Assembly (NCBI GenBank): GCA_963971425.1
Contig: OZ020524.1
Location: 7,054,417 to 7,118,416 of the forward strand
Length of the DNA: 64,000 nt
Direction: 5' to 3'
DNA from: Bryoerythrophyllum caledonicum
Lineage: Eukaryota; Streptophyta; Bryopsida; Pottiales; Pottiaceae
Shown: positions 108 to 62,812 of the stretch, in pieces
How the letters are laid out: every line of letters begins with the position of its first letter
Numbering within the stretch: the first letter of the stretch is position 1
Made by a program: the position numbers and the translations under genes
Notes under the pieces: generated by a model
What the model saw: only the letters and a program-made list of their open reading frames with translations
Told to the model about the DNA's origin: nothing
The model's database searches: none

Positions 108-2570
108 TCATCCCTTCCAGCCACCCATCGTGTTGTCAACACCAACACGTAGAAGAATGTCGCGGTCAACTTCGAGGACTTTGCTGAAAGCTGAGACCTC
201 GATGCGATGGTGTGGCTCCATCTCCGCTCCAAACTGAGCCAACCATGGGACTGCCAAATGGATGGGCGACGAAGCAAGGTGCGGATCTGTGCACCGATGG
301 CATCTATAATCGCGCATCGACAGCAACTCTGCTACGCAACGGGGATGGACGAAGCATCCGCAAGAGCTCAGCACCGCTGCTTTCCAAACAAAGCCGAGGC
401 CACAAAAAGCACACATGTCATTCACTTCTAATCCTAGAGGAGGAATAGATTTCTATTTGGGATATTCGAAAGGACTCGGTGTGGAGAGTTTGAGGAACTG
501 CTGCCGTGCTTCTGCAACCTTTGCTTGGGCGCGAGTCAACGCTGCCAATGCCGCGTCATGTGCTGCACGTTGCGTTGCCAATGCGGACTCGAGCTTCAGC
601 ACCTCCTCCCGAGAAGCGGCGTCTGCTGCCCGCTCAGAATCGAGCTAAGTGGCCAACAACTTCACCTCTGCGGCCTTCTTTGCATAGTCAGCAGCTGGAG
701 CGCCCTCACGGAGAAGGCGCTTTGCTTCCTTCGAAGCTGCAAGATATGCCGCATTAAGAGCATCCAAGGCCTCATCGTCTTCCTCACGCAGCTTCAGTAA
801 GGCGGCGTCCAACTTGACCCGCGTCTCCTGTAGAGGCGCATCCATCTTCGCGAACTCCTTCGCCGCCACTGACTCCTCTTCCGGGGCAGCAGCGAGTGCA
901 TCCGGAGTCTGCGTACATTTGTCGCAATTGACCGCTGCTTTGAAGAGAAAAAGCAGACAATACACATGGAATATTAGATGGTGAATGTGTGCTCGGATAG
1001 TATGTAGATGCATCACAAGGTAAACCTCAAGTCCCCATAGACTATGACACACTGTTCAAAATTTAATAACAGATTCCACCCTCATTTTCAGCAAAGTGCA
1101 GAGATGTCAACACACTAAAACAGAGATGAAATTTTTTGAAAGCATAAGGCATAATGATAAAGCGGCTGCAGAGACGATCTTTGTATGACAGAAAAGCATT
1201 GCACCACTCTGGTTCAATATTGGAAGGAGAAGAATAATGAAAACGATATGACCGAGGGACCCTATATAAAAAACTTCAGTGCCATAAACTGTCGACTCTT
1301 CTAATGTGAAGAAATTAGAAATAGTTTCCACCCTATCAACAGTGATACTCGTTAATGTTATATGTTACATGAACTGTCCCGTTTCAAAATACACCCCTGC
1401 TTACGTATCAGTGTCTCACTATTCACACAGGTCCTACCTTGTTATCAAACAATAAAACAGTTTGGGCTAATTTTTAGGATTGGCAACTCTTCCCAAATAA
1501 CCAGACTTAAGCTCAAGAAAGGGCAATCAAACGAGACACTCGATGTGTAACATACCATTCCTGCACAAAATTTGATGTGCATTTCCTACTCTGTTCTGGA
1601 GAAATCGAATACTTGGCTTGTGCATGGCACCCTTCTAGATTAAAAAAACTCTAGGCACATGATAATCAACCTCAAGAAACTGCTCAACGACAAGCTATCA
1701 TTAAAAATGTATACAAATAAAAAAGAAAAAACAAGAACAACAAAAAAAAACAAAGAATTGGAATGAACATGTACCAAACGGCTTTGAATCAAGCTCAACA
1801 CCCAACAAATTCTTCTACAAACAGACGCATTTCTGGGCAACCACCTTAAAACAACAAAAATCCCTGTGACGTAATCAGACGCTACTGGACGAACTGCAGT
1901 TGAAGTCATCACCGACTAAACACTCGATCAAGACATTAAATGATTAGGATCAAGACTATAAATGTTTAGAGATTAGGATCAAATTGCAGAAAATGTAAGG
2001 AAAATTTCCACCAATGTTCATAACCGACGAAATAGTCAACAGATGAAATAGGAAACATTAAAAACTCAACATTCCAGAAACCATAAAACACAAAAGCATC
2101 AAAGAAAAAGAATGAAAACAAAAAACAAAAACCCTGGGATGAATGAAAGAGGCGGAAGATAAAGAATAAAAACAATTCACTGAAATTAGAAAAAAAAATT
2201 CAAAACAGACAGTAGTTCCAAGCAAAGGCAGAAGCCTTACCTGAAGTGGAGGCCCGAGGGTCGAGGTTGACCGATGCGGTGCTTCTGCAAGACAACTGTG
2301 CGATGATCTTGCACAATCCCTCAACTTGGCATGGCGTAGCCACTGGCCCGAGCTTCTGCGGATTGCGGAGTTGATTCTTCTGTCGATTCGCCATTCGAGA
2401 CATTGCTTCCGCAAGCCAGTTGACAGGTAGCCCGTAGATAAACGTGGCGTAGCAGGCCCTCAAAAAACGGAAGGAGTAGTACGCATTGTCGGGCTTATTC
2501 CCGTAGACTTTGAAGTAGTGTGCCGAAAATTGCTTCCGCTAAGTAGGATCAGTGCACCTGGAGATCCTCA
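108..2570 (-). pseudogene. Decayed unknown-family gene, copy A (coiled coil plus RING-like Cys/His cluster)
   Basis: Function unknown. Read on the minus strand, three pieces line up with the plus-strand gene at 12790-15024. The first (about 2550-2242) contains KVYGNKPDN and ends at a plausible GTAAGG donor. A second exon starts near 942 after an AAAGCAG acceptor and is a charged, Ala/Glu-rich coiled coil. The third is a C-terminal cluster at about 416-290 with spacing C-x2-C-x13-C-x-C-x2-H-x2-C-x11-C-x2-C, beginning CAFC and ending CHRC. The last two pieces share one frame over 942-108, broken by TAG at 645-647 and another TAG near 450. A further in-frame TAG sits near 2539, and the 5' end is lost where a tandem repeat begins. 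The eight Cys/His residues resemble a RING finger, which usually recruits E2 enzymes for ubiquitination; that role is inference. The identical spacing in the second copy shows this was once a real gene. Confidence 0.55.
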
Positions 2571-3620
2571 AAATTAGTGAAGTGTGTTTTTTTTTTTTTT
2601 TTTTAATTTTAAATTTTAAATTTAAGTCATAAAATTTCTTCATATCTTGAAGAATTGAAGTGGTAGTGGGTTTTGTCTCCATTAGTAAGTACTTAGATAT
2701 GACGGAACAAAAAATCATAAATGATAGATATAATCCTTATTACAGCAAATTTCATAACTAATTGTAGGTTGGCAAACACTAAGATGTAGTCTTCATGTCA
2801 CTCTCCCTCAAAATTAGCGGAGATTTCCTTTTTCAAAAAAATTAGTAAAAAAAATTAAATATTTTATAATTCTTCTTCCTATCTTTCAGGCTAGATGTGG
2901 TAGTGGGTTTCTCTAGATCAGTAAGTATTTAGATATGAAGGAACAAGAAATCAGAAATGATAGATATAAGCCTTGCAATATCAAATTTCAAAAGATAAAA
3001 TAGGAGGCTCGAAAAAATTGAGATGCACCATACATGTCCCTCTCCCTCGAAGTTAGTGAGCAGTGGTCTTTGTTTTTTTTCAATTTTTTATATGCACACA
3101 AATTATAATTTTTCGCCAGATCAAGTTTGTTTGATGTCATAATGGGTTTCTCTGCATTAGTAAGTACATCGAGAAGAGTGAACCAGAAATCAACCAGAAA
3201 TCGGAACTCATAGATATATGGGCCTACCAACATCAAATTTAAAATAACAATGCAGACTTCCTAAAAATTGAGATGTAGCGGAACCCGGTTCTGTCCCTCA
3301 TATTTAGTGGGTAGTGATCTTTGTTTAATTTTATTTTGTAATTGGAAAACAATTTATAATCCTTCTTCATATCTTCAGACTTCAAGGCTTGTTGTGGTAG
3401 TGGGTTTCTCTACATTAGTATGTACTTATAAAAGAAGGAATCAAAAATCTTAAAGGTTAAATGAGTAAGTACTTAGAGAAGAGGCTACATTTGCAAGTAC
3501 TTACTTAAAAGATGGAACCCGATGTCAAAAAACATAGACTCCTAAGCCTATCAACATCAAATTTCGGAAATAAAGTTGTGACTAAAACTAGAATTTGTAG
3601 CCTTCCTATCACTGGCCTAT
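2571..3620. repeat. Four diverged ~240-bp tandem repeats
   Basis: The phrase GTAGTGGGTTTCTCT and its variants recur near 2661, 2903, 3143 and 3395, giving a period of about 240-250 bp. Each unit also carries TTAGTAAGTACTTAGA, a run of T near its start and a CCCTC-AAATTAG motif. The units are AT-rich and diverged from one another. The array directly adjoins the broken 5' end of the decayed gene on its left. Confidence 0.8.
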
Positions 3621-5043
3621 TTAGTCGTTTGGATAATTTTTATTTTCAGTTTCTCTGAAAAGACTCTATTTCTCTTAAAAGCGTGATGTGGACTCTCCTA
3701 AATCTTTACATGTAAGGAGCTTAGATTTAGAATTAGACTCTATATTTCCTATCCATGAGAATGAGAATTTGTTGGTTTTATATTTGTAGGGTCTATTTGC
3801 ATATACCATGTTGTCCTGCAAGATTGATGGAAGTGGGCTTCTCCCGCTTCTTTGCTTCCAATTTTTCGATAACAAGTACACAGTTGAGCGTTAGAAACAT
3901 TGTGACTTTCCACCCCCGACTTCTAAATTGCGGTCTGTAACTGACTGTTAGTATTTTTGATGGTACCGAGCTATGTAACTCCATTGTAGCTGTCGCTTTT
4001 CTGTAATTCGCTTTTGCAACCAGATATACTTCTCTCCAGATTAAGTGCACTGATTTTTACTTGGACCGGCATAAAGTTATGATGGTTTCAACTGAGATAA
4101 ATCTACGAAAATCACGCTGACGGAGCCGTTGCATTACGCTGACGTGTACAGTACAATATGTACGAAGGGGCACATTCTGAATGCTCACGTGTACAATGCA
4201 GAATATACAGAAGTTCCAGAGCCTGCATCTACAAAATCCAGAGCTTGCATCTACAATATCCAGAGCCTGCATCTACGATATCCAGAGCCTGCGTCTACGA
4301 TATCCAGAGCCTACACATTAGAGAGATCTCCAAGACAGCGAGTCACATGTGAAGCAGACTTACAGGATGCGCCTAAATATAAGAAGCACTTGCTTCCACA
4401 GAAAACTATTAGGGACAATGAAAAAGGCCCGGGACGGTCGTTGCACACCAGTTATCCTTTGTTGAATCGCCTTGTTCTCTCGTGGCTAAAAAGGTATAAA
4501 ATTTTTGATATAAGATTTCAGTTACTTATTTATTTATTATTGTAATACCAGGATTACCAGCTCCTGTAACATTTGCTATAGCATGTCGTCGAACCTAAAA
4601 CCATCAAATTTCGGCGCTGTGAAGTGAACCTACATCGAATTTCTCAATGTTTTGGAAAATTAAGCAATTTAGGCATTGCAATGTTCTTTAACATTTTAAA
4701 GGGAGATCGATTTTGTTGCAGAATTTCCTCGACAGAGATAACACAGCAGATGAGTATGTGTGCCCTGTTTGCTAAACAGACATGTTATTTGAAGTCCATT
4801 GGCTACGTAGACATGTTGGTTAAATTCTACAGTTTTGACACAACATAGACTGTTTACATGTCCTAGTTGATATGAAATGCGCAAGCAGCATTTTCTTCTC
4901 CATAGCATTAAAGTGCTGCAGCATTGCTGACATCGAATTACAGTGGCGAGTAAAACTTCGCTGCAATGGAGGGTTCTGAAAACTACATCAGATCCTCAAT
5001 ATCTATTGCAATTGCTGTACGGGTTTGATGTGGGAGTGCCCCG
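3621..5043. other. Intergenic DNA, no gene recognised
   Basis: Only short open frames without recognisable motifs occur here. The one structured element is the 22-bp minisatellite at 4215-4312. Confidence 0.5.
4215..4312. repeat. 22-bp minisatellite, about 4.5 units
   Basis: Unit CAGAGCCTGCATCTACGATA plus TC, repeated with a few substitutions (TTGC for CTGC, AAAATCC for ATATCC, GCGTC for GCATC). Confidence 0.85.
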
Positions 5044-23521: not shown

Positions 23522-24408
23522 CCCCTAAGGAATTAGAGTTCCCTTGGGAAAGACTTTGAATTTCAATTGAGTCCTTTGGTCTCAAATTTTGGCATGATTT
23601 TTTAACATTTTTATTTGTTGAAAGAGCAACTTTTTAATAGCTATCCGTTGACATGATTTTTGTAGAAATTTGACTTACCGTACAAAAGTTAAACACATTT
23701 TTAGTAACATGTATAGAAATATGCAGCGGTTTAATGTGACATATAACAAATAGTGTAACAAAATTTTAATTAATTCCAGTTTCAATATAAATTCAAGTTT
23801 TTGTCCATTTGAAAAAAAGAAAAACTCTTCTTGGAAAGGGAATGGAAATCTTTGCATCTACCATAAGGGTTTTTGAATTTCAAAAATATGAGAAGGATAT
23901 GTATGATACATGCAAAACTTATTAGTGTAATATTAATTCTCAGTACATAGTTGTATTGTAGGATTTTTTAAAATATCTTCTATCCCTCTTCTACTTCTAA
24001 ACTTTGGTGCACATGTGCCTAACATGATCTTTTTTAGGTTAGAATTAGAAAATCACAACCCGTAGTACAATAATTTGCCATAGAAGGTGGTCAAAGTTTG
24101 TTGAAGGTATTTAGTATGACCTCAAGAAGAGTTTATATCTCACTTCAAAGGCTATTATCTTTCAATCCGTGCGGTCAAGCTGAACAAAAGTTTTACCACA
24201 CTTGTATAGTACATGTCTTCAATGCTATGATCTTCCAATATGTGTGGTAAAAATTCATATAATATTGAATATGGTTTATTCTTCTAAAAACATATACTAA
24301 GACCATCAATTAGAAGTGGTAGGAGATCATTACTTGTATATTGTTATATGAGCACTAGGAATGGTAGTTTTGTTTTCTTTCCAAAACATAGTCATGTTCC
24401 TTTAAAGG
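23522..24408. mobile_element. TTAA-flanked element B, diverged, 887 bp
   Basis: TTAA at 23518-23521 then CCCCTAAGGAA. The other end, reverse complemented, is TTAA then CCTTTAAAGGAA. Internal blocks such as AATCCGTGCGGT and the AATTTGACTT-type stretches resemble element A, so it is probably an older member of the same family. Confidence 0.6.
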
Positions 24409-25442: not shown

Positions 25443-28400
25443 CTACGACAAGCCCAGAACCATGCCGTTGTCGAGGTCCATGTCGATGTCGAAGAAGCAG
25501 GGGCGCGTAGGCAGGCCGGGCATGGTGCTCATGGCGCCGATGAGCGGGTAGATGAACCCCGCGCCCACGCTGGCGCGCACGTCGCGGATGGGCAGCGTGA
25601 ACCCCGTCGGCACGCCCTTCGCCGCCGCGTTGTCCGAGAATGAGTACTGCGTCTTCGCCACGCAAATCGGCAGCTTCGTGAACCCCTGCCTCGTGTACGT
25701 CTCGATCTGCTTCTCCGCCTGCATTGCCATCCCACCCAATCGTCAAGAGATCAGTGATCATGTCAGTTGTAACCTCAGTATGAGAAAATTCACAGCTTAC
25801 CTCGGGAGAATATTCGACTCCGGCCGCACCGTAAGACTTGGCGATCGCCTCAATCTTCTCCTTGATGCTGATATCAAGCGGGTACAAAAACTTGAACTCT
25901 CCAGTGTGCTGCTCACACGCCTTCTGGACCGCCTTCCCGAGCTCCACCTGAACGCAACAACATCGAGTTTCAACCAGAAAGTGGAGGAGGAGGAGGAGGA
26001 GGAGGAGGAGAAAACCAGCCCTACCGCGCCAGCGCCGCCGTGAGCGAAATGGGTGCAGATTACGGCATCTGACGCGCCCGCTGCGACGGCGGCCTCGCGC
26101 ACAGCCTGCAGCTCTGCGTCTGTATCGGTCGCAAATGCGTTCACCGCGACCACCACGTTCACGCCGTACGTTCTCGTATTCTCGATGTGCTTCACCAGGT
26201 TGCAGCACCCGCGCTTCACCATCTCCACGTTCTCGCTCTTGTACGCGTGGTCCAGCGGCCTCCCGGCGACCACCGGGGGGCCACCGCCGTGCATCTTGAG
26301 CGCCCTCACCGTGGCCACGATGACCGCGCACTGCGGAGTGAGTCCACTGTACCTGCACTTGATGTTGAAGAACTTCTCCACGCCAATGTCCGACCCGAAT
26401 CCGGCCTCGGTGACGACAAACCCTTCGGGCCCGACGAGCTTGAGCGCGATCTGGTCCGCGACGACGGAGGAGTTGCCGTGGGCGATGTTGGCGAACGGGC
26501 CGGCGTGGACGAGCACCGGCGTGCCTTCGAGCGTTTGCATGAGCGTGGGGTGGATCGCGTCCTTCATCAGGACCGTGAGCGCGCCCCCGATGCCGAGGTC
26601 GTCGGCCGTCACCGGGTCCCCGCCGCGGCTCGTGCCCACCACCATGTTGCCCAGGCGCTCACGCATGTCGGCCAGCGAGGTCGTCAGCGCCAGCACCGCC
26701 ATGATCTCGCTCCCCACCGCGATGTCGAACCCGGTTTCCCGCGTCATGCCCTTCTCGTCGGGCCCTTGACCCACTGTGATCTTGCGCAGGAAGCGGTCGT
26801 TGACGTCCAGGACACGCTTCCAAGTGATGAGCGCGGGGTCCAGGTTCAGACGCACGAACTTGGTCACCTCTTCCAGCGTCAACTCGTCGGGATTCGTCTT
26901 GTCGATTCCCAGCTTCTTCAGACGCTTCAGCATCACCTTGGCGAAGGTCCGCTTCTTGTCCTTGTCGGCGGGGCACAACCTGTTGAGGAGCGCTTTGTCG
27001 GATTGCGTCGCTTCATGGAACATGCGCGCATCGATCGCTGCGGCGAGCAGGTTGTTGGCCGCCGTGATGGCATGGATGTCACCTGCAAATCATGCAGAAC
27101 ACACATTCTCAGTCTACACATTCTCACTCTCAGTAGATGTCTAGACCTTGCCTCGAGAGCTTCTCAGAAGATTGAGAATGTACGAGAGAAGGGGAGGTGT
27201 TTGTGAAGTTGCCTGAAGTTTATCCCCTCTTTCTCCTTTGTTTGAACTGAATTAGAACTAGCTACGAATACTTCTTAATCAATCTGAATCAGTTCAAAGC
27301 AGAGAAAGGCCGCGAATGTTCATAATGGTTGATCTCACGTGAACTCTTTCTGAAACTACATTGACTTGAGTTTAAAGACAACCAAGCTCTTCCATACTTC
27401 ATTGAATTCTCTCACATGCAAATTCTTCCTTCACTCTCGCAGAGTTTTGACTTGAGTATAGAGACCACCATACTGAATTGAAGGATTCTAACTGAAAGCC
27501 ACCAAGCACTTCTACTGATCTAATAAATCGAATGATTCTCAGGGTGACTTTGCAGCTTAATATCCATACCTGTCATGTGGAGATTGAACTCGTCCATGGG
27601 GATGACCTGGCTGTACCCACCGCCGGCTGCGCCTCCTTTGATCCCGAATGTGGGGCCCTGACTGGGCTGCCTGATGCAGGTCACCACCTGAAAAAACCCC
27701 CCACAAGTGCAACCCTAAGGAGGCTAACTTACACATTCGCAAGGAAGACAACTTGCTATTGATTAACATTACATACCTTCTTCCCGAGGTACGCCCCAAG
27801 GGCTTGGCATAGTCCCACAGTGGTGGTAGACTTCCCCTCTCCAAGGGGTGTGGGTGTGATCCCACCTACGACTACGTAGTAGCCATTCGGTGCGTCTTGT
27901 AGCCTGTCTAGGGTTGAGAGAAGGACCTGCAAAAGCACAACAGACATTGATCATTCATAATCCCACATTCACAATAAATCTCATCAACAAAGGTGCTCGA
28001 AGATTGGCAGGTAGAATATGATATGTTTCTTCGTTGCATATAAAACACATTGGCCTCTCTAAGGTCAAAAGAGAAGCTGGAGTTTGAATCCACATGGTTC
28101 TAGTGAGCTATTGACTCAGAGCTTAATAAATAATGCCAAATATACAGCTCTCGAAAGCTTCCGTATCACAAGCTTAAAACTAGATCCTTCACATCCACCC
28201 CATCGACATATACAACCCAGAAAACAATACACTCCGATTCTGTGACACCCTCTCCAAAATGCACCAAATTCTCCAGGAGTTTATCCGAATTGCGATTACC
28301 GTACAAAATCAGCGTTTCCACAAAAGCAGTATCTCGACATAACCACAGAGAAAGGTGCCAAGAGTGAAGACCTTGCAAAATTCGCGATCACCCGCATTGT

Positions 28401-29392: not shown

Positions 29393-30082
29393 ATGGCGAC
29401 GGAGGCGTGCTGCACTCCGGCTCCGGCCGCGGCGCCCACGCACACCGGCAAGGAGGAGTTTCTGGCCGGGACGAAGGTGTACACGACGGGCTCCGCGGCC
29501 GCGCCCGCGGCCGTGATGCTCGCGAGTGACGTGTTCGGGTACGACACGCCGTTGCTGCGCAAGCTCGCGGACAAGGTGGCGGCCGCGGGGTACTACGTCG
29601 CGGTGCCGGACTTGCTGCAGGGGGAGCCCTTCGTCCCGGGCGGCGAGATCGCGCCGTGGCTGTCGCAGCACCCCGCCACGGGCGCGGCGCTCGAGAGCGC
29701 GCACGGCGTCGTGGAGGCGCTCAAGGACAAGGGCTTCGGCGCGGTCGGGTGTGCGGGGTTCTGCTGGGGGGCGAAGGTGGTGGTCACGCTCGGGAAGGAG
29801 CGTGACGTGCGCGCCGTGGTGCAGATGCACCCGTCGCTTGTGGAGAAGGCGGACTACGAGGAGGTGGTGGTGCCGATCGCGGTGATTGCGTCCCCGAAGG
29901 ACGGGATCGAGCAGTACGAGGACCTCATCGCGGCGCGCTCGGAGCTCAAGAGCTTCGTCAAGATCTTCTCCGATGTGCGCCATGGCTGGACGGTGCGGTA
30001 CGAGGAGAGCGACGAGGAGGCCGTCGAGAAGGCGCACGAGGCGCATGAGCTTATGCTCGACTGGTTCGCCAAGTTCCTGTGA
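29393..30082 (+). CDS. Dienelactone hydrolase family protein (alpha/beta hydrolase)
   Basis: A 229-residue single-exon protein of the dienelactone hydrolase family. Plant members are poorly characterised and are often labelled endo-1,3;1,4-beta-glucanase-like; the true substrate here is unknown. Catalytic residues visible are Cys124 in GFCWGAK (the G-x-C-x-G nucleophile elbow), Asp170 in ASPKDGI and His197 in DVRHGWTVRY. The DVFGYDTP segment (residues 46-53) and VPDLLQGEP match the family's early conserved loops. Length is normal. ATG 29393 is chosen because it gives the typical short N-terminus (MATEACCTP); an in-frame extension is not needed. Codon use is strongly GC-rich, unlike the AT-rich flanks. 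There is no signal peptide, so it is likely cytosolic. It ends ...LMLDWFAKFL, a tail copied again 100 bp downstream. Confidence 0.92.
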   Translation: MATEACCTPAPAAAPTHTGKEEFLAGTKVYTTGSAAAPAAVMLASDVFGYDTPLLRKLADKVAAAGYYVAVPDLLQGEPFVPGGEIAPWLSQHPATGAALESAHGVVEALKDKGFGAVGCAGFCWGAKVVVTLGKERDVRAVVQMHPSLVEKADYEEVVVPIAVIASPKDGIEQYEDLIAARSELKSFVKIFSDVRHGWTVRYEESDEEAVEKAHEAHELMLDWFAKFL

Positions 30083-37599: not shown

Positions 37600-38289
37600 T
37601 TGAATTTAAGCCCAACGGCCCTCTTGATTTCCGTCGAGTTGACCTCTTTGCCTTGATCCAACACAAAACCTATTGAACCAAGAAACATAATTTACTTGGC
37701 AAAAAATAACATACTTACTGTAGTGTAGGCACATTATGTAAATAATAAATGCTATAAGTTTTTACTATTGATTAATTACATCACCAAGTGCATGTATAAA
37801 TGCCTTCATTTTTTTGTCTTCTTTTTATGTATCATGTACCATGTGGAATTTCAATTGGCAATTCTGTTTGGATGATTGCATCTTTTCTACATTAAAATTC
37901 TTATAAGCTATTCAAAAAAATTTGTACAATGATATTAAATAGACACTTATCAAAGTTCAACGACGTTCCACTAAAAATTTGTTGAAAAAGCAGTTTAACA
38001 TCTTGTTAAATTGACATTTTTAATTGCACACAATATTGATCCAAGAACTCTACTTTTTTTTCAAAATTGACCAAAAAAATTCAAATGTGGGATTTTTGGT
38101 GAGCCATGGCCGTCGTAGTTCCTAAGTGCACTTTTAAATGGCCAAGTGCATAATTGCTTAATTGCATGTTTTAGGTAACCTTGAACTCTGTAGTCAATCT
38201 TGTTTTTTCAAGGTAGTGTAAAGCAAACTTGGATCATGACAACTTCCGTGGCCAATCACAAATTTTAGAAGGCCGGGGTCAATCTTTGT
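37600..38289. other. AT-rich intergenic DNA
   Basis: No gene, array or element ends recognised. Confidence 0.4.
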
Positions 38290-39250
38290 GGTCCATAGTG
38301 TAACTCTTGTTGTACTTGAATACACCTTTATTATTCTACAGAGTAAAGTACATGCATGTGTAAACGGCTCCCCACTGACATTTAACCCATGCAGGACGAG
38401 TACATGCATGTGTATACGGCTCCCCACTGACATTTAACCCCTGTAGGACAAGTACATGCATGTGTAAACGGTTCCCTACTAACGTTTAACCCCCTGTAGG
38501 ACAAGTACATGCATGTGTAAACGGCTCCCCACTGACATTTAACCATGCAGGACGAGTACATGCATGTGTATACGGCTCCCCACTGACATTTAACCTGTGT
38601 AGGACAAGTACATGCATTTGTAAACGGTTCCCCACTAACATTTAACCCCGGTAGGACAAGTACATGCATGTGTATACGGCTCCCCACTGACATTTAACCC
38701 TGGTAGGACAAGTACATGCATGTGTATACGGCTCCCCACTGACATTTAACCCCTGAAGGACAAGTACATGCATGTGTAAACGGTTCCCCACTGACATTTA
38801 ACCCTTGTCGGACAAGTCATGCATGTGTAAACGGTTCCTCACTGACATTTAACCCCTGTGGAACGAGTACATGCATGATGCATGTATATACAGTTCCCCA
38901 CTGACATTTAACCTCTAATGGACTAGGCCTTGTGCTTCACCGAAACCACTCCAAAACTCTCACTTTGACATGAGATGTTTTTAGACTAATTGAAACATCT
39001 ATTCACTATTTTCAACTGTAAAATTTTCAAGCTCGCTACTAAAAAGACACCCAAAAATATTCGTAAAAGTTGACCGTGCGGATTGTGAAATACCTGCATT
39101 TGAAGAGTGCAAATTGTTTTTTTCCAATGTGCCCGGACATGGCTAGCGTACTTTGACTCAAGATAATGGCATATTTTTCCACTACACATTGCATAAGCTC
39201 AATGGATGTACCTTGTGATAGGTCATCGCACGCCAAAAATCACAAGTAAT
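38290..39250. repeat. 52-bp tandem array, first copy, with flanking unique arms
   Basis: About eleven units of ~52 bp built on TACATGCATGTGTA-AACGG, TCCCCACTGACATTTAACCC and TGTAGGACAAG (38340-38930). The left arm (AACTCTTGTTGTACTTGAAT) and right arm (GGCCTTGTGCTTCACC) are the same as around the second array at 41895-42790. ACATGCATGT inside each unit is a perfect palindrome. Minus-strand open frames through the array are by-products. Confidence 0.9.
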
Positions 39251-39964: not shown

Positions 39965-40728
39965 ATTCTTCCCCTTCACATATTAGGAAGTGATTATATT
40001 GTGCTCCTTTAATATCCACCTAGCCAATTTTTGGATTCTTTAAGTAGAGAATCTCAATTGACATGAAAAAGAAGTAGATTTTTATGCATAAAGTTCAAAT
40101 TTGAATATACACTAGATGTACACATTTCCAAAATCAAATCATGGTTTAGAGTTATAAAACTCTTGGAATACTACATACATCAAAATACAATAAATTCTTT
40201 TATTGAAAAAATGAAGATGAACTTGTTTTCAAAGGAAATTGGCGTGAATATATGTCCATTTGTTCTCTTCATTTAGCTATAATGCCTATAAGACATAGAT
40301 TAATGAAATAGAACTATTGCCTCCTTTTAAGGGTAGACAATAGTCTATAGACACCTCTAGAATCTATAATTGATCATTAATAACTACACTAGTATAAAGA
40401 GACTAGTGGCCAATATTTAGTAAAATTGGTGGTTGTTTTTAATTTGAGAAGAGGTGTAATAGAGAATGATTATGTAGAGAAATTTTTTAAAACCAAATAT
40501 TGAGCTGATGTTGGTTGGTTTAGGTGTTTGTCACATTTGATTGGTCTAGGTTTGAACAAATGTTGGACCAATATCAAGATTTTGTAATACCTACCTAGTA
40601 CCAATATTAGAATTTTAATATAATGTCATCCGGGTTGGATCCCAAGTATCACAAGGATCATATTTTTACAAACCTAGTATGAGTATGAGTATGAGTATCA
40701 ATCTTGCAAAAATAAAGCTTCAAGGTAT
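39965..40728 (+). repeat. Dispersed ~760-bp repeat, copy 1
   Basis: From TTAGGAAGTGATTATATTGT through GTAGAGAATCTCAATTGACA to AATCTTGCAAAAATAAAGCT, this matches 57725-58450 in the same orientation at high identity with a few small gaps. No coding frame. Confidence 0.85.
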
Positions 40729-40840
40729 CTGACAAGGTCTTAAAAAGGTGTTCTAGCAGGTCTTTCTGGATGTCACAAGGTAGCCACCCTCCAAAAATCA
40801 AACTTATAGAAAAACTCTATAAGACAAATCTCAATATATT

Positions 40841-41894: not shown

Positions 41895-42790
41895 AGGTGT
41901 AACTCTTGTTGTACTTGAATACACCTTTATTATTCTACAGAGTAAAGTACATGCATGTATATACAGTTCCCCACTGACATTTAATCCTGTAGGACAAGTA
42001 CATGCATGTGTAAATGGTTCCCCACTGACATTTAACCCATGCACGACGAGTACATGCATGTGTATACGGCTCCCCACTGACATTTAACCCCTGTAGGACA
42101 AGTACATGCATGTGTAAACGGTTCCCCACTAACATTTAACCCCTGTAGGACAAGTACATGCATGTGTATACGGTTCCCCACTGACATTTAACCCTTGTCG
42201 GAGAAGTCATGCATGTGTAAACGGTTCCTCACTGACATTTAACCCCTAAAGGACAAGTACATGCATGTGTAAACGGTTCCCCACTGACATTTAACCCCTG
42301 TAGGGCAAGTACATGCATGTGTAAACGGTTCCCCACTGACATTTAACCCCTGTCGGACGAGTACATCTATGATGCATGTATATACGGTTCCCCATTGACA
42401 TTTAACCCCTAGTGGACTGGGCCTTGTGCTTCACCAAAACCACCCCAAAATTGCCACTTTGACATGAAATATTTTTAGACTAATGAAAAACATTCTTTTA
42501 CTATTTTCAACCGTAGGGTCTTCAAGATAATTACTTAGAAAAGACATCCAAAAAAATTCATAAAATTTGATAGTGCGGATGAAAGAAACATGCATTTCAA
42601 GAGTGCAAAATTGTTTTTTTCATTGTACTTGGACAAGGTCAGCGCACTTTGACTTAGGATAATGGCATTTTTCTTCCACTACACATGCACTCAATGCATG
42701 CACTCAATGGTTCTATGTTCCACCTTTCATTAGGTCATCGCACCCCAAAAATCACAAGTAATCGAGGTGTTACAATAAGAAAACTCAAAA
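41895..42790. repeat. 52-bp tandem array, second copy
   Basis: About nine units (41940-42420) of the same 52-bp repeat as at 38340-38930, with the same left and right arms, in the same orientation 3.6 kb away. Confidence 0.9.
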
Positions 42791-50889: not shown

Positions 50890-53390
50890 GTTCTGGACTG
50901 ATGGTATCACTCCCGCGACACCCAGAGACCCGGAGGCTTTTAGCTGCAGCCAGGCCGGAGTCCCAACCTGGCCACCCGATCACTTCCAATGACAGCCGGA
51001 GACCCGGAGGCTTCAAGATGCAGCCAGCTTGGAGTCCCGATCCGACCATCCGATCACTTCCAGTGACACCCAGAGACGTGGAGGCTTCAAGATGCAGCCA
51101 ACCTGGAGTCCCAATCGAGACATTCGAGCACTTCTGGTGACACCCGGAGACCTGGAGGCTTCTAGCTACAGCCAGCCCGGAGTCCAAACCCGGACATCTG
51201 AGAACTTCCGGTGACACCCAGATACTCGGAGGCTTCCAGCTACAGCCAACCCGAAGTCTCAACCCGGCCATGCGATCACTTCTATGACACTCAGAGACCC
51301 GGAGGCTTCCAACTGCAGTCAATCTAGAGTCCTAACCCGGCCATCTGATTATTTCCTGTGACAATAGGATACCTGGAGGCTTCGTGCTACAGCCAGCCCA
51401 GAGTGCCAACCCGGATATCCGAGCACTTCCCGTGACACCCAGAGACCCAGAGGCTTTTAGCTACAGCCAACCCGAAGTCTCAACCTAGCCATGCGATCAC
51501 TCCTGTGACACCCAGAGACCCGGAGGCTTTCAACTACAGCCAGTCTAGAGTCCTAACCCGACCATTCGGTTATTTTCTGTGACAATTGGAGACCTGGAGG
51601 ATTCGTGCTACAGCCAGCCTAGAGTGCCAACCCGGACATCCGAGTACTTCCGGTGACACCCAGAGACCCGGAGGCTTCTAGTTGCAGCCAGCCTGGAGTC
51701 CCAACCTTATCATCCGATCACTTCCAGTCACACCTGAAGACCAGTAGGCTTCCAACTACAACCAGCCGGGAGTCCAAACCCGGCCATTCGATCACTTCTG
51801 GTGGCACCCAGAGACTTGGAGGCTTTCAACTGCAGCCAGCCAGGAGTCACAACCCGGCCATCCGGACACTTCGAGTAACATCCAAGGACTCGAAGGCTTC
51901 CACTTCTAGCCAACCCGGAGTCTGAACCCGGCCATCTGATTACTTCCAGTGACACCGGTAGACCCGGAGGCTTCCAACTGCAGCTAGCGCGGAGTCCAAA
52001 CCTCGCCATCCGATTAAATCCTGTGAGACCCGGAGGCTTCCAGCAGCAGGTAGCCCGTAGTGCCAACCCGGCCATCCGATCACATCGAGTAACACCAGGA
52101 GACCTGGTAGCTTCCAGCTGTAGCCAGCGTGGAGTCCCAACCCGGACATCCGAGCAATTCCGGTGACATCCGGTGACCCGAAGGCTCCAGCTACAACCAA
52201 CGCGGAGTCTCTACCCGGACATCCGAGCACTTCCGGTGACTCCCAGAGACCCGGAGGCTTCCAACTGCAGCCAACCTCGAGTCCCAACCCGGACATCTGA
52301 GCACTTCCGGTGACACCCGGAGACGCGGAGGCCTTTAGTTGTCGCCAGCCCGGAGTCCGAATCCGGCCATCCGATCACTTCCAGTGACATCCGGCGACCC
52401 GGAGGCTTCCAGCTACAGCCAGCGCGTAGTCCCTACCCGGACATCCGAGCACTTCCGGTGACTCCCGGAGACCCGGAGGCTTCTAGCTGCAGCCATCCCG
52501 GAGTCCCAATCCGGCCATCCGTTCACTTTCAGGGACACCCGGCTACTCGGAGGCTTCCAATTGCAGCCAGCCCGGAGTCCCAATCCGGCCATCCGATTAT
52601 TTCCTGTGACACCCGGAGACTCAGAGGCTTCTAGCTGTATCCAGCACGGAGTCCCAACTCGGACATCCAAGCACTTCCACTGACACCCGGAGACCTAAAG
52701 GCTTCCAGCTGCAGCCAGCCAGGAGTCCTAATCCTGCCATCCGATTACTTCCAGTGATACCGAGAGACTTGGAGGCTTTCAGCTGCAGCTAGCCTGGAGT
52801 CCCAATCCGTCCATCCGATTATTTCATGTGACACCAAGAGACCTGGAGGCTTCGAGGTGCAGCCAGCCTGGAGTCCCAATCGAGACATTTGAGTACTTCT
52901 GGTGACACCCGGAGATCCGGAGGCTTCCAGTTTCAGCCAGCCCAGAGTTCGAATCTGGCCATCTGAATATTTCCAGTGACACCCGGAGACCTGGAACCTT
53001 CCAGCTGACCTCAACCCGGAGTCCCAACCCGGACATCTAAGCACTTCCGATGACACCTGGAGACTAGGAGACCTCCCAGCTGAAATCAACCTGGAGTCCC
53101 AACCCGGACATCCGATCATATCCTGTGACACCTTGAGACCTGGAGGCTTCCAACTGCAGCCGACCCGGAGTCCCAACCCGGACATCCGATCACTTCTGGT
53201 GATACCCGGAGACCCGGAGACCTTCCAGCTGCCGCCAATCCGGAGTCCCAACCCGGACATCCGATCATTTCCAGTGACACCCGGAGACCTGGAGGCTTCC
53301 AGTTGCTGCCAACCAGGAGTCCCAACCCGAACATACGATCATTTCCAATGACACCCGGAGACCCAGCGGCCTTCGAGCTGCGGACAACCT
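50890..53390 (+). repeat. 74-bp tandem array, about 33 units
   Basis: CGGAGGCTT marks each unit, at 50931, 51005, 51079, 51153 and 51227, an exact 74-bp period. Consensus parts are CCAGCTGCAGCCAGCCCGGA, GTCCCAACCCGGACATCCGA and CACTTCCGGTGACACCCGGA. Because 74 is not a multiple of three, the minus strand cycles through all three frames and stays open for long runs, giving several repeat-only frames (for example 52745-53260). Confidence 0.95.
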
Positions 53391-57421: not shown

Positions 57422-57724
57422 ATCTGCCCTGCCGGATGAAAGATAAAGATTCATCCAATTTTGCATTATCTCAAACAAAGATTTGTCCAAACATAGGTTT
57501 AACATTCCTTCCAAACTTATTTTATGCTTCTGTGTTGACTAAGAGGTTTAGAATGATTGGGTTGTTATTTTTATAAAAATTCTCCATTGGCTCCAAGGAT
57601 GGAGATGCCCGTAAAGCATCCGATGGTGGCTCCTATTCATGTGCTAAGAGGTGGATGTTATAGATTCATTTGAAAAGCGGTTGTGTGCTTCACTAAGAGG
57701 AAGACGAAAGAATATTCTTCCCCT

Positions 57725-58450
57725 TCTCAAATTAGGAAGTGATAATATTGTACTCCTTTGATATCCACCAAACCAATTTTTGGACTTTTTAAGTAGAGAA
57801 TCTCAATTGACATGAGAAAGAAATAGAATATACACTAGATGTACACATTTCCAAAATCAAATCATGGTTTAGAGTTATAGACCTCTTGGAATACTACATA
57901 CACTAAAAATACAATAAATTCTTTTAATGAAAAAATGAAGATGAACACAGTTTTCGAAGGAAACTGGCGTGAATGTAATGTCTATTTGTTCTCTTTATTT
58001 AGTTATAGTGCCCATAAGACATAGATTAATGAAATAGAACTACTACCTGCTTTCAAGGATAGACAATAGTCTATAGACACCGAGTCTAGAATCTTTAATT
58101 GATAATTAATAACTACACTAGTATGAAGAGACTAGTGACCAATATTTAGTAAAATTGGTGGTTGTTTCTAATTTGAGTAGAGGTGTAATAGATAGTGTTT
58201 ATGAAGAGAAATTATGAAAAACCAAATATTGAGCTCATGTTGGTTGGTTTAGGTGTTTGTCACATTTGTTTGGTCTAGGTTTGAACTAGTATTGAACCAA
58301 TAACAAGATTTTGTGAGACCTACCTAGTACCAATATTAGAATTTTAATAAAATGTCATCGGGGTTGGATACCAAGTATCACAGGGATCATATTTTTACAA
58401 ACCTAGTATGAGTATGAGTATCAATCTTGCAAAAATAAAGCTTCAAGGTA
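57725..58450 (+). repeat. Dispersed ~730-bp repeat, copy 2
   Basis: Matches 39965-40728 in the same orientation (TAGAGAATCTCAATTGACAT, TACACTAGATGTACACATTT, AATCTTGCAAAAATAAAGCT). Confidence 0.85.
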
Positions 58451-59274
58451 TCAATATCAAGTATCATTGTAGTAAAGTATCAAGCATCAAATGTAATACC
58501 AGTAGAATATGCACACTGGTATGGTATTGATTTGTCGTATTACTTTTCTCAACTTTTTTCTTTTGAAGAACCTCTTTTTGACGTAAATTTTTTTTACTGA
58601 TTTAATAAAATTGAACATAATATATTTGCAGTCAAGTAACTTTGAACATGAACATACTAACTCAAATGCAAATGATTAAACACACAAAAAAAAACAACAA
58701 ATGTTGTACAATAGGGTGACATTCAAATTGGCCGTTTAGTAGTTCCAGGGATAGTGTCCTACACTGCTGCCAACTTCGACACCCTCCCCAAAGCTGAGAA
58801 ATTGTTATTTTACCATGAAAATTTGGGGACAACATCATCTTTATGTTGAAAACATGCATACCAAATTTCAAGTCCAGGAGACTTATACAAAAAAACTTAT
58901 GCAAGATCTACCAACATGGGATAGCTGTGAGAAAAGTGTCACAACTGCCAACTTTGACACCCTCCCAAGAATTGAGGAAATTTTTTTTGCCCATGAAATT
59001 TTTGGAGCAAAAACATTTTTATGTTGTTTGCATGTGTGGAAAATTTCAAGTCCAAAAGACCCATACAAAAAATAATATACCAAATCTACCAACATGTGTA
59101 GTTTTGAGAAACAAAGGGGAAAACCATTTTACTACTTCCAACTTTGACGCCCTCCTTAGGATTGAGTTTTTGTTGATACATAGTGAAATTTTTGGCACAA
59201 GATCATCTCTGCGCTGGTAACATGTAGGATCAATTTCAAAGCCAAAAGATGTACACAAAAAAGTTATTCCATAT

Positions 59275-60278
59275 CTACCAACGTGTATGTCCTCCATTAC
59301 CGTCAATCACTGCTCGTAACCTAGAGGGCATAGAATGACATAGTTGAAGGAGCTTTGTACCATTGACTAACTTCCACTCTCTTTCAAGAACTACCTTCAA
59401 CACATCTAAGCTTCTAGGGCATTGTTTGCCATGTTGCACAACATCTTTTAACATCCTCCAAACGTTCTCGATTGGATTGAGATCGGGAGAGTTTGCAGGT
59501 CAGTTGATCTATTCGAGAAGGTGGCTTTGTCTCCATTCTTCACATATTTTGCTCCTATGGACGGGTGCCCCATCTTCCATAAGCACTCCTTGTGGAATTT
59601 TACCCATGAAATGAACCAATTTGGCATCATAAACCACTTCTATAAAATCCTTAGCAGAACGTTGACCTTTAGGCATAAAGACAAGTTCTGACTTTTGTCC
59701 TCCGGCAAATGCGCCCCAAATCATTAAAGAAGTCCTTCCACTTTTAAAAGTAGGAGCTAGACAACTTGATGAATAACGCTCGTATGCACTTCTCCAAACA
59801 TGAATTTGCCGAGAATTTTTTCAAAAGTAGATTCATCTGTCCAAACAACACGCTCCCACTCTTTTGCACTCCATCCACGGTACTTCTGAGCAAAAGCTAA
59901 TCGTTGAGACATGTGACGAGGTGTCAAAAAAGGTTTTTTGACTGCAATTCGACTAAAAATGCCATTTTTATGTAAGACCCTTTGAATAGTACGTCTACAC
60001 ACTTGAGTAGGACATGCATTGGTAATCTCTGAGAGTGAAGAGCAACGATGAATTTTTGAGTTATGGACAATAGTACGAACATCTCTATCACTAAGCTTTT
60101 TAGCGTGACTTCCACCGCAAGGTTTGCGCTTGTAGGTTCCATCTTCTCTAAATGTTTTTACTAACCTTGTAACTATTCTAATAGGAACTCCAATAGTAGC
60201 TGCAATTTGAACTCCTGTCAATCCTCCTTCACTCAAACCTATGATGCGAGCACGAATTTCATCTGAAATTTCCATCAT
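59275..60278 (-). pseudogene. Tc1-like DD34E transposase (element 1)
   Basis: Starts MMEISDEIRARIIGLSEGGL with a paired-type helix-turn-helix (LTGVQIAATIGVPIRIV), then VVWTDESTFE (first Asp), LMEDGAPVH (second Asp) and SPDLNPIENVW (Glu), with 34 residues between the second Asp and the Glu, the Tc1 signature. A one-base frameshift in an A run near 59820 and two stops (TAG 59509-59511, then TGA replacing the Trp of WPANSPDLN) inactivate it. The end, GGHTRW-stop, overlaps the inner edge of the left inverted repeat. It cuts and pastes at TA. Confidence 0.92.
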
Positions 60279-60902
60279 AAACTTATAGAGTGCGTGATGC
60301 TAGCTACAGCAGTAGAGTAGGGGTTAGAGCAGACCAAGGGGGAGAGAAGGGGGCCAAAGGGCTAGAGCAGAGCAAAGGGGGTTGTAGGATTGACACGTGA
60401 CAATTGGCAGAGGAAGGAGAACAGGGCTGGAGCAGAGCAAGGGGGAGAGAAGGGAGCCAAGGCGCTGGAGCAGAGAGGAGAGAGAAGGGTCGCCAAAACA
60501 CAAGCCCATATGCATACATGAAAAATCGTTTTGCTCTTAATCACTCATCATGTATGCCCAATGTGAATCAACACTCATGCATCCCACAATACAACACTCT
60601 CTGTTTTAAGGATTGTCTCAACATTCAGTCTATCACAAATCACACACACCATTCCCTTTACATAGTGTTCAATAGATATTTAGAAGAAAAAATTTGTCAT
60701 GTATCTAATGCACACTTTATGGCCAAGTGGATTCTTCTGCATGGAACACCTCTTCACTTCTTCATTTAGATGTTATTGATCTTTTTGAGAAGCATTTATG
60801 TTTGGTGGCTTACTCACATGATTGAGTTCAATGAAAAAGCAGGAGGTGTCAAAGATATTTTGACATTTTCAATATGACCTTCAAATTGTTTATCATAGTT
60901 AC
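60279..60902. other. Interior of element 1 upstream of the transposase
   Basis: Non-coding. G-rich AGAGAAGGG-type direct repeats occur at 60316-60490, with AT-rich sequence after. Presumably holds the transposase promoter. Confidence 0.45.
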
Positions 60903-61483
60903 ACATGTTGATAGATATGGAATAACTTTTTTTATGTATGTCTTTTGGCTTTGAAATTTATCCCACATGTTACCAGCGTAGAGATGATCTTGTGCCAAAA
61001 ATTTCACTATGTATCAACAAAAACTCAATCCTAAGGAGGGCGTCAAAGTTGGAAGTAGTAAAATGGTTTTCCCCTTTGTTTCTCAAAACTACAAATGTTG
61101 GTAGATTTGGAATATTATTTTTTGTATGGGTCTTTTGGACTTGAAATTTTCCACACATACAAAGAACATAAAAATGTTTTTGCTCCAAAAATTTCATGGG
61201 CAAAAAAAATTTCCTCAATTCTTGGGAGGGTGTCAAAGTTGGCAGTTGTGACACTTTTCTCACAGCTATCCCATGTTGGTAGATCTTGCATAAGTTTTTT
61301 TGTATAAGTCTCCTGGACTTGAAATTTGGTATGCATGTTTTCAACATAAAGATGATGTTGTCCCCAAATTTTCATGGTAAAATAACAATTTCTCAGCTTT
61401 GGGGAGGGTGTCAAAGTTGGCAGCAGTGTAGGACACTATCCCTGGAACTACTAAACGGCCAATTTGAATGTCACCCTATTGTA

Positions 61484-62810
61484 CAGTTCCCTTCGGAAAG
61501 TCTTCGGACAAATCGAATCTAGGGTTCTTCAGAGTTCTCGCACTACTGACTTCAAACGGCTCCCATTTCTTCAGCCGGCCTTCAAACCCTAGATTTCTTT
61601 TCACAACATGGTGTACACAGGAGAGGAAAAGGCTCAAGTGGTTGGGATGTTCAAGGGTGGCTGTAGAGTGAGTGAAATTGCCGTTTCTTTAGGTATACCT
61701 AAACAGAGTATTTCTGACATTCTGAAGAAGTACCGCATTGAAAACACCGTGGAGACCTCGCAATGCAGTGGAAGGCCAAAGAAGTTGTCAGAGCGGGATA
61801 CTAGAGCAATTGTTCGAGTAGCCAAGCAGAACAGGAGGGCAACACTGGCAGACATCACGAATTCTTCGCCTATCCAAGTAAGTCATATTGTTGTGAGACA
61901 AGCATTGAAAGATTCTGGTTTGCAAAGTAGAATTGCTCGCAAAAAGCCATTTCTTTCACGTGTTCACAAAGAGAAGCGACTTGCTTTTGCGAAAAGTCAT
62001 GTCAATTGGACCGTAGAGCAGTGGAAGAATGTGATTTGGACAGACGAGGCAACCTTTGAAATTGGCAAAAATTTCCGGCAAATTCGGGTGTGGCGTAGCA
62101 CCAAAGAAACTTATGAACCGGACTGTTTGGCTCCAACTTTCAAGAGCGGTAGGACTTCAGTGATGATCTGGGGTGCTTTCTACAATAATCTAAGGTCATC
62201 ATTAGGGTTTATGATACCAGGAAAGCGAACTGCTCTTGATTTTGTGGATATAGTTTACGAAGGGCCTCTGAAAGAATTTTTGTTGTTAGTTCCTGGGGCA
62301 ATTCTCATGGAAGATGGTGCTCCTGTGCATCGTAGTCTTGCACCAAAAAAATGGAGAGAAGATTGAGGATTGCAGAAGCTTGAATGGCCGGCACAGTCAC
62401 CAGATTTGAATCCGATTGAAAATGTGTGGGCCATGATGAAGAGCAGTATACAGAATCGCTCAACACCAATTACAAACATTGCAGACATGAAGATAGCTCT
62501 GCAAGAGGTGTGGGTAGGCTTAGACATTGAGAACTTTGAAACTTTGATTGTAAGTTTGCCCACCAGAATGGCTGCTGTGATCAAGGCCAAGGGAGGAGCA
62601 ACTCGATGGTAAATTGGTATACTTGCAGAAAGAGATTCTCAATTGACTCAAGATTTTTCTTGTATTTTCATGTGTTGGTTGTCGATGAGTATAAAAAATT
62701 TGAGGTCAGTGCATGGATTTTGGATTGTGCTACATCAAATTTGATGCCAAGCGATGCGGCTGTCCAAAGTCAGTTTTCTTGGTTGTCCGAAGACTTTCCG
62801 AAGGGGACTG
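61484..62810 (+). mobile_element. Tc1/mariner element 2, 1327 bp, 28-bp terminal inverted repeats
   Basis: Left end CAGTTCCCTTCGGAAAGTCT then TCGGACAA. The right end reversed is identical except for C in place of the fifth-position T. Flanked by TA at 61482-61483 and 62811-62812. Standard length for the family with one transposase gene. Confidence 0.95.
61608..62612 (+). pseudogene. Tc1-like DD34E transposase (element 2), one premature stop
   Basis: A 334-residue frame from ATG 61608 (MVYTGEEKAQVVGMFKGG) to TAA, typical length. N-terminal helix-turn-helix (VSEIAVSLGIPKQSISDILK), a GRPKKLSERD linker to a second DNA-binding unit, then Asp146 in IWTDEAT, Asp236 in LMEDGAPVH and Glu271 in NPIENVW, so DD34E is intact. 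The only lesion is TGA at 62364-62366 in the same frame. It is about half identical to element 1's transposase by eye and much less damaged, so more recent or better preserved. Confidence 0.95.
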
Positions 62811-62812
62811 TA

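Follow-up and report, generated by a model that had tools for sequence, protein, structure and literature searches.

Tip-to-tip stacks of Tc1-like elements and their probable basis in a self-rebuilt TGTACA target in the moss Bryoerythrophyllum caledonicum

Two Tc1-like transposable elements of the DD34E type, E1 and E2, lie side by side in a stretch of 64,000 nucleotides from the moss Bryoerythrophyllum caledonicum (contig OZ020524.1, positions 7,054,417 to 7,118,416), which is referred to here as the window. E1 occupies 58709..61481 on the minus strand (2773 bp, tips CAATAGGG...CCCTATTG), E2 occupies 61484..62810 on the plus strand (1327 bp, tips CAGTTCCC...GGGGACTG), and a single TA at 61482..61483 is common to both. 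Direct reading gives the boundary as CCCTATTG-TA-CAGTTCCC with zero extra bases besides the TA, and its context, ATTG-TA-CAGT, contains the palindrome TGTACA. Outer TAs are present left of E1 at 58707..58708 (context TTG-TA-CAA) and right of E2 at 62811..62812 (context ACTG-TA-CAAT). An initial annotation of the window had described two elements that abut at one common TA and have intact outer TA flanks; the description is exact in both respects.

E1 has inverted arms of about 578 bp (58709..59286 and 60904..61481), with 97.6% identity over 583 bp when the junction bases are included. The left arm carries three diverged direct repeats with spacings of 178 and 190 bp, and the right arm carries the same three repeats in inverted order. 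A core common to the three repeats, CTGCCAACTTTGACACCC, is also carried by some partner elements elsewhere in the genome. The putative transposase remnant of E1 (59278..60278, minus strand) contains HTH_Tnp_Tc3_2 and DD34E pieces, and a frame change together with in-frame stops disrupts its reading frame. A search of the window with the E1 tip (up to 3 mismatches) gave no match beyond its own two ends. Ten other copies in the genome could be aligned end to end at 95.1–97.5% identity, and two more in pieces. A repeat of about 740–770 bp, present at 57714–58452 and 39965–40729 with 88% identity, stops about 250 bp before E1. The inverted tips of E2 measure 28 bp with one mismatch. Its tip was found in the window (up to 3 mismatches) at its two ends and in one further 3-mismatch match at 23534. 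The predicted transposase frame of E2 (61608..62612, plus strand) contains one in-frame stop at 62364..62366. The genome holds about 14 copies of E2, three of which adjoin another element. The neighbour is E1 in the window, and at C5:16257 and C15:1942960 the neighbours come from two different families of a further set, here called X.

Several features place these elements among the Tc1-like DD34E families. A TA stands at all three junctions, and empty copies of the host repeat described below hold a single TA. The DD34E spacing, counted from the second D to the E, is 34 in nine of 13 long frames; the other four were missed by the script motif, one of them (L022x) being without the E in the alignment. 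For E1 and E2, reading by eye gave a spacing of 34 as well, with each stop taken as one position. The Tc3-type helix-turn-helix domain PF01498 was recognised in both (E 3e-15 for E1, 2.5e-18 for E2). Terminal CAGT gives a mixed picture: E2, the close cousins of E1 and the X families carry it, and E1 ends in CAAT. Transposases of different families are 40–59% identical; those of E1 and its 3.7-kb cousin reach 81%. PDB searches returned Tc3 and Sleeping Beauty relatives, and an Rfam scan of the window gave no match at the gathering threshold. Judged from their sequences, the transposases look like ordinary DD34E members. Since stop-free frames of 335–347 amino acids are present in several E1, cousin and X copies, some of these families may be recent.

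The initial annotation had expected that divergence would give the order of insertion. The arms of E1 differ at 12 of 555 positions, which lies within the range of 1.1–3.1% seen in 12 other copies, and the single tip difference of E2 recurs in the other listed E2 copies, with GGGAACTG at one end and GGGGACTG at the other. Divergence of arms and tips therefore favours neither order of E1 and E2. The more broken transposase frame of E1 is a weak hint that E1 may be the older of the two.

The assembly (437 Mb, 894 contigs, with the window on contig C12) was searched for further junctions. Counts from these searches are lower bounds, and for long results the listed matches are the first 100, from the first contigs. 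The junction CCCTATTG-TA-CAGTTCCC (up to 2 mismatches) recurs, with 56 genome matches against 10 for the reversed control. Seven of the eight loci obtained with it, including the window, combine an end of E1 or its close cousin, on the left, with the tip of a different element, on the right. In twenty larger loci, E1, the 3.7-kb cousin (CAGTAGGG tips) and several families with CAGTACCC or CAGTCCCC tips adjoin at single TAs, and three-element chains occur, for example in L019 and L027. These twenty loci were selected for having a junction; rates were therefore taken from other listings. The further abutting pairs for which the initial annotation had proposed to search thus exist, and ten other Tc1-like tip sequences were recorded next to E1-type ends. 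At L013:5328-5375 (also in L005), 22 bp of a CAGTCCCC tip stand between two TAs beside another copy of this tip, perhaps as a long excision remnant.

The number of junctions would be inflated if an abutting pair moved as a unit and was copied as such. The loci L002 and L008 do hold the same kind of pair, E1 and a CAGTACCCTCACAC element, but the partners differ by about 7% between these two loci. The ten partner tip sequences likewise argue against such composite transposition, which we consider very improbable.

For any single TA, the chance of being hit by any of 1500–5000 insertions is about 1e-4. Among the listed ends, a tip neighbour was found at six of 100 for E1 (one of the six after a footprint), in 13 of 100 rows, equal to 11 junctions, for the cousins, at 10 of 76 for the X families and at 3 of 28 for E2, one of the latter (C5:16257) having a tip changed at one base. 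Pooled, these are 32 of 304 rows (10.5%), which are not fully independent, as some junctions occur in two lists, occur twice in one list or were counted from both sides. The initial annotation had also called for a comparison with random TA sites, and the excess over the expectation of about 1e-4 per TA is large. Had E1 and E2 been the only evidence, one accidental insertion into the TA next to E1 would have been a possible reading. The 56 junction matches, compared with 10 in the reversed control, rule out a junction that is unique or due to chance, and with about 10% of the listed ends having a neighbour, the probability of coincidence is negligible.

The listings were handled as follows. 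Among the E1 ends, two tip-like rows (CAATGGCGG and CAGTCGGGTACTGG) were dropped, unrecognised as element tips, and one row in which a CTG footprint precedes the tip was included. From the X listing (317 matches against 83 for the reversed control), 24 of 100 rows without a family tip were dropped; nine footprints were called there by script, two of which are cousin tips and one of which is unclear. For the cousins, 1461 matches stood against 601 for the reversed control; only exact rows of the listing were used, and the decayed tips at C1:7696072, C2:24486571 and C2:23307124 were left uncounted. For E2, only the 28 rows with at most one mismatch were used, as the reversed control (98) nearly equalled the total (110).

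The neighbourhood of the ends shows a clear target preference. CA follows the outer TA at 92 of 100 listed E1 ends, at 83 of 100 listed cousin ends and at 26 of 28 E2 ends (up to 1 mismatch), compared with 366 of 3918 TAs (9.3%) in the window as background. The X listing was not used here because its search pattern required TG before the TA. The opposite end reads likewise, giving TG before the TA, and the full target is TGTACA. This preference is presumably a property of the transposase. At two E1 copies on C1 (2582887/2585672 and 53559656/53562446), both tips are exact and the bases beyond the flanking TAs are unequal. Consequently, we take the TA alone to be duplicated. A 6-bp duplication comprising the whole TGTACA is contradicted by these two copies, where later mutation of the flanks could also explain the unequal bases. 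Scaled from 45.6 kb of flanks together with the window, the genome contains 144,000–226,000 TGTACA motifs; half of the 1752 ends found with the E1 end pattern then corresponds to a rough genome average occupancy by E1 of 0.4–0.6%.

A high-copy host repeat with the site TTGTACAA (L042:2844 and about 2000 genome copies) offers a ready-made target series. The site, CCTTG-TA-CAATGC, has 2017 genome matches, and 98 of 100 listed copies are without an element. On the CAATGC side a CCCTATTG-type tip was found in 23 copies and a cousin-type tip in nine; on the other side X-family tips were found at seven copies, after 32 of 39 matches had proved to be host variants or CAG footprints. In a further search at the host site, 20 of 56 matches were dropped by eye as host variants. 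Pairing of the two sides by coordinates gave 33 sites recognised from both sides and 15 recognised from one side only. The 33 two-sided sites comprise 28 single elements, two abutting pairs, one E1 beside a CTG footprint, one X-type element with two footprints and one unclear case (a 4.15 kb span on C15). In the two pairs, at C3:5429497-5436013 and in L021 on C11, the TA is replaced by TA-element-TA-element-TA exactly at one TGTACA; the inner junction of the former is among the cousin matches, and the latter was read directly. They support the view of the initial annotation that one element entered the TA beside the other, and sequential insertion into the TA common to E1 and E2 is supported. 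The X-type element, on C14 (L062), adjoins one CAG and one CTG footprint; the 3.4 kb that it spans may in fact be a pair of elements.

A further 27 copies of the host site carry footprints without an element: 14 CTG, eight CAG, two double CTG, one decayed double and two decayed singles. The triplets CTG and CAG correspond to the ends of CAGT-tipped elements, and each footprint leaves one TGTACA intact. The double footprints might have been single ones on a host variant, but direct reading confirmed them as double (L059, L060) and as a decayed double (L061), and all three have the host variant GGCCTTG. Altogether, 48 filled and 27 footprint-only sites, 75 of 2017 (3.7%), have been visited. Second visits number seven, namely two pairs, two elements with footprints and three double footprints. 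As the three double footprints with their common variant may trace to one event, we count five to seven. If a renewed target equals an original one, with two targets per filled site and one per footprint, 4.6 second visits are expected. Hence, the host site calls for no additional attraction, and a few-fold excess is still compatible with so few events.

The target preference, the recurrence of junctions and the host-site series (empty, filled, footprint and pair) are direct observations, and from them we propose the following course of events. Related Tc1-like DD34E families, E1 and E2 included, would move by cut and paste into TGTACA palindromes, with duplication of the central TA only. Because the tips are CA...TG, the sequence TG-TA-CA would become TG-TA-[CA...TG]-TA-CA, and the target would be restored at both ends. 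Excision would often leave a terminal triplet (CTG or CAG) with a TA on either side, again with one TGTACA. A site once used would thus stay usable, and different families could pile up tip to tip with one common TA. It is likely that the preference for TGTACA, combined with a target rebuilt by the elements themselves, accounts for the tip-to-tip stacks, and the pair in the window is probably one such pile of two elements. We also infer that no further steering acts beyond this renewal of the target.

Four points weigh against this proposal. The pooled proportion of listed ends with a tip neighbour (32/304) exceeds that of filled host sites (48/2017, 2.4%; Fisher p ~8e-10). The preference is strong, not absolute, since 17 of 100 listed cousin ends are without CA after the TA. 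The variant common to the double footprints raises the suspicion that occupied host repeats were copied, so that amplification of the repeat may have multiplied insertions and footprints as well. Finally, the host site represents one sequence context, and the matched test comprises a handful of events.

The initial annotation had suggested that transposase bound at the ends of one element steers the insertion of a relative. The excess of junctions that was to support this suggestion is real. Steering is not needed to explain it, as the families prefer TGTACA and their tips rebuild it, and the five to seven second visits at the host site fit the 4.6 expected without steering. According to such a model, transposase sitting on the ends or on internal repeats of the resident would recruit the transposition complex of a relative, and the TGTACA at a tip would be a better target than TGTACA elsewhere. 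The excess of pooled ends over filled host sites agrees with it, and so does the presence of the direct-repeat core of the E1 arms in some partners. In addition, CAGTNCCC-type tips, those of E2 included, were found at at least 15 of 1752 ends with the E1 end pattern, compared with 7 of 2017 host sites (p 0.052). However, the neighbours belong to several families, E2 is short-tipped and without the repeats of E1, and the same excess arises from uneven target quality. We therefore regard tip steering as unlikely. The stronger variant, in which residents act as beacons whose end-bound transposase would make the adjoining TGTACA several times more attractive to other families and so build arrays by cross-family target capture, appears equally doubtful.

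Uneven target quality would mean that certain TGTACA sites, owing to open chromatin or better flanks, are used repeatedly, and that a resident merely marks such a hot site. This would add to target renewal rather than replace it. Element-free host sites with double footprints (L059, L060 and the decayed L061), the host site with an element and two footprints (L062) and rows of several footprints beside E1 (L019) or between two tips (L014) fit this explanation. Moreover, a CCCTATTG-type tip at 23 of the 2017 host sites lies above the rough genome average for E1. The flanks extending outward from the first 30 E1 ends of the listing (45,570 bp, 3275 TAs) point in the other direction and agree with target renewal at the tips. 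Tips found by the pattern used abut in 3 of 30, and no independent tip was found at other positions in these flanks, including 15 TGTACA motifs, one of which is the far end of an abutting element. These numbers are small, and too few to decide for or against steering. We judge the chances of hot sites to be about even, and they would most simply account for the genome-wide excess of tip neighbours.

If target renewal by the tips is the basis of the stacks, each insertion would create two new landing sites and leave the resident unbroken, so that elements are stacked rather than nested. The host repeat presents about 2000 copies of one target, some empty or filled, others excised, re-used or doubly filled, and thus a natural experiment within one assembly. 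It allows insertion, excision and re-insertion to be compared and could serve as a yardstick for end-directed targeting.

Elsewhere in the window, two 52-bp satellite arrays are located at 38286–38929 and 41936–42474. One unit of each reads TATATACAGTTCCCC, which is similar to a Tc1 tip, and a sequence similar to TATATACAGTTCCCC was present among the dropped rows of the X-family listing. Positions 25800–27023 and 29393–30079 contain a putative formate-tetrahydrofolate ligase fragment and a putative dienelactone hydrolase family gene. A tandem array with a 74-bp unit in about 33 copies extends from 50906 to 53381.

Among Tc1-like elements, PpTc1 and PpTc2 of moss (Liu and Yang 2014, PMC4054914) resemble the present elements in a DD34E transposase of about 338 amino acids and in TA duplication, and E2, the cousins and X also in their CAGT tips, as far as the accessible text describes them. 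Their terminal inverted repeats measure 33 bp, in contrast to the 578 bp with repeats of E1, which has CAAT tips. Neither a TGTACA preference nor abutting elements are reported in the accessible text, and the words 'nested', 'tandem' and 'footprint' are absent from its main text. Sleeping Beauty, ZB and Bari share with the present elements the Tc1-like type, a target preference around the TA and short footprints, according to the available sections of PMC7913693 and PMC4877112. There, the target preference of Sleeping Beauty and ZB is described as palindromic, ZB footprints comprise 0–3 bp, a size that the CTG and CAG footprints match, and Bari loci are enriched for other Tc1-mariner elements. 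Stacking at a common TA is not described for the three in those sections. Sleeping Beauty and ZB prefer ATATATAT and Bari prefers AT-rich sites, whereas the target here is TGTACA. An AT-repeat target is not shared by the present elements, since CA follows the outer TA (92/100, 83/100 and 26/28 ends). Palindromic target motifs reaching beyond the duplication have also been described for the Drosophila terminal inverted repeat families studied in PMC3276498, in the part available.

In the open-licence literature, covered largely at the level of title and beginning of the abstract, we encountered no description of a Tc1-like group that restores a TGTACA target through its tips. The components of such behaviour have counterparts. 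The SaTar elements of guayule and rice, non-autonomous Mutator-like elements (MULEs), form end-to-end arrays of different elements that do not interrupt one another, with the target still available after insertion (PMC5907723, available part). They belong to the Mutator superfamily, with duplications, where present, of 8–11 bp and microsatellite targets, in contrast to the Tc1-like type, the TA and the 6-bp palindrome found here. The present elements, with a 2-bp duplication and TGTACA as target, do not fit the stacked MULEs in these features. A Stowaway miniature inverted-repeat transposable element in intron 4 of the beta-amylase gene of Triticeae (Mason-Gamer 2007, PMC1925063, available part) was repeatedly inserted at and excised from the same TA and stands beside an old footprint. 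That case concerns one locus across species and a non-autonomous element, whereas here many copies of one site in a single genome are accompanied by stacked elements. As far as the available parts of both papers extend, stacked, non-nested arrays were already known from SaTar and the re-use of one TA from Stowaway.

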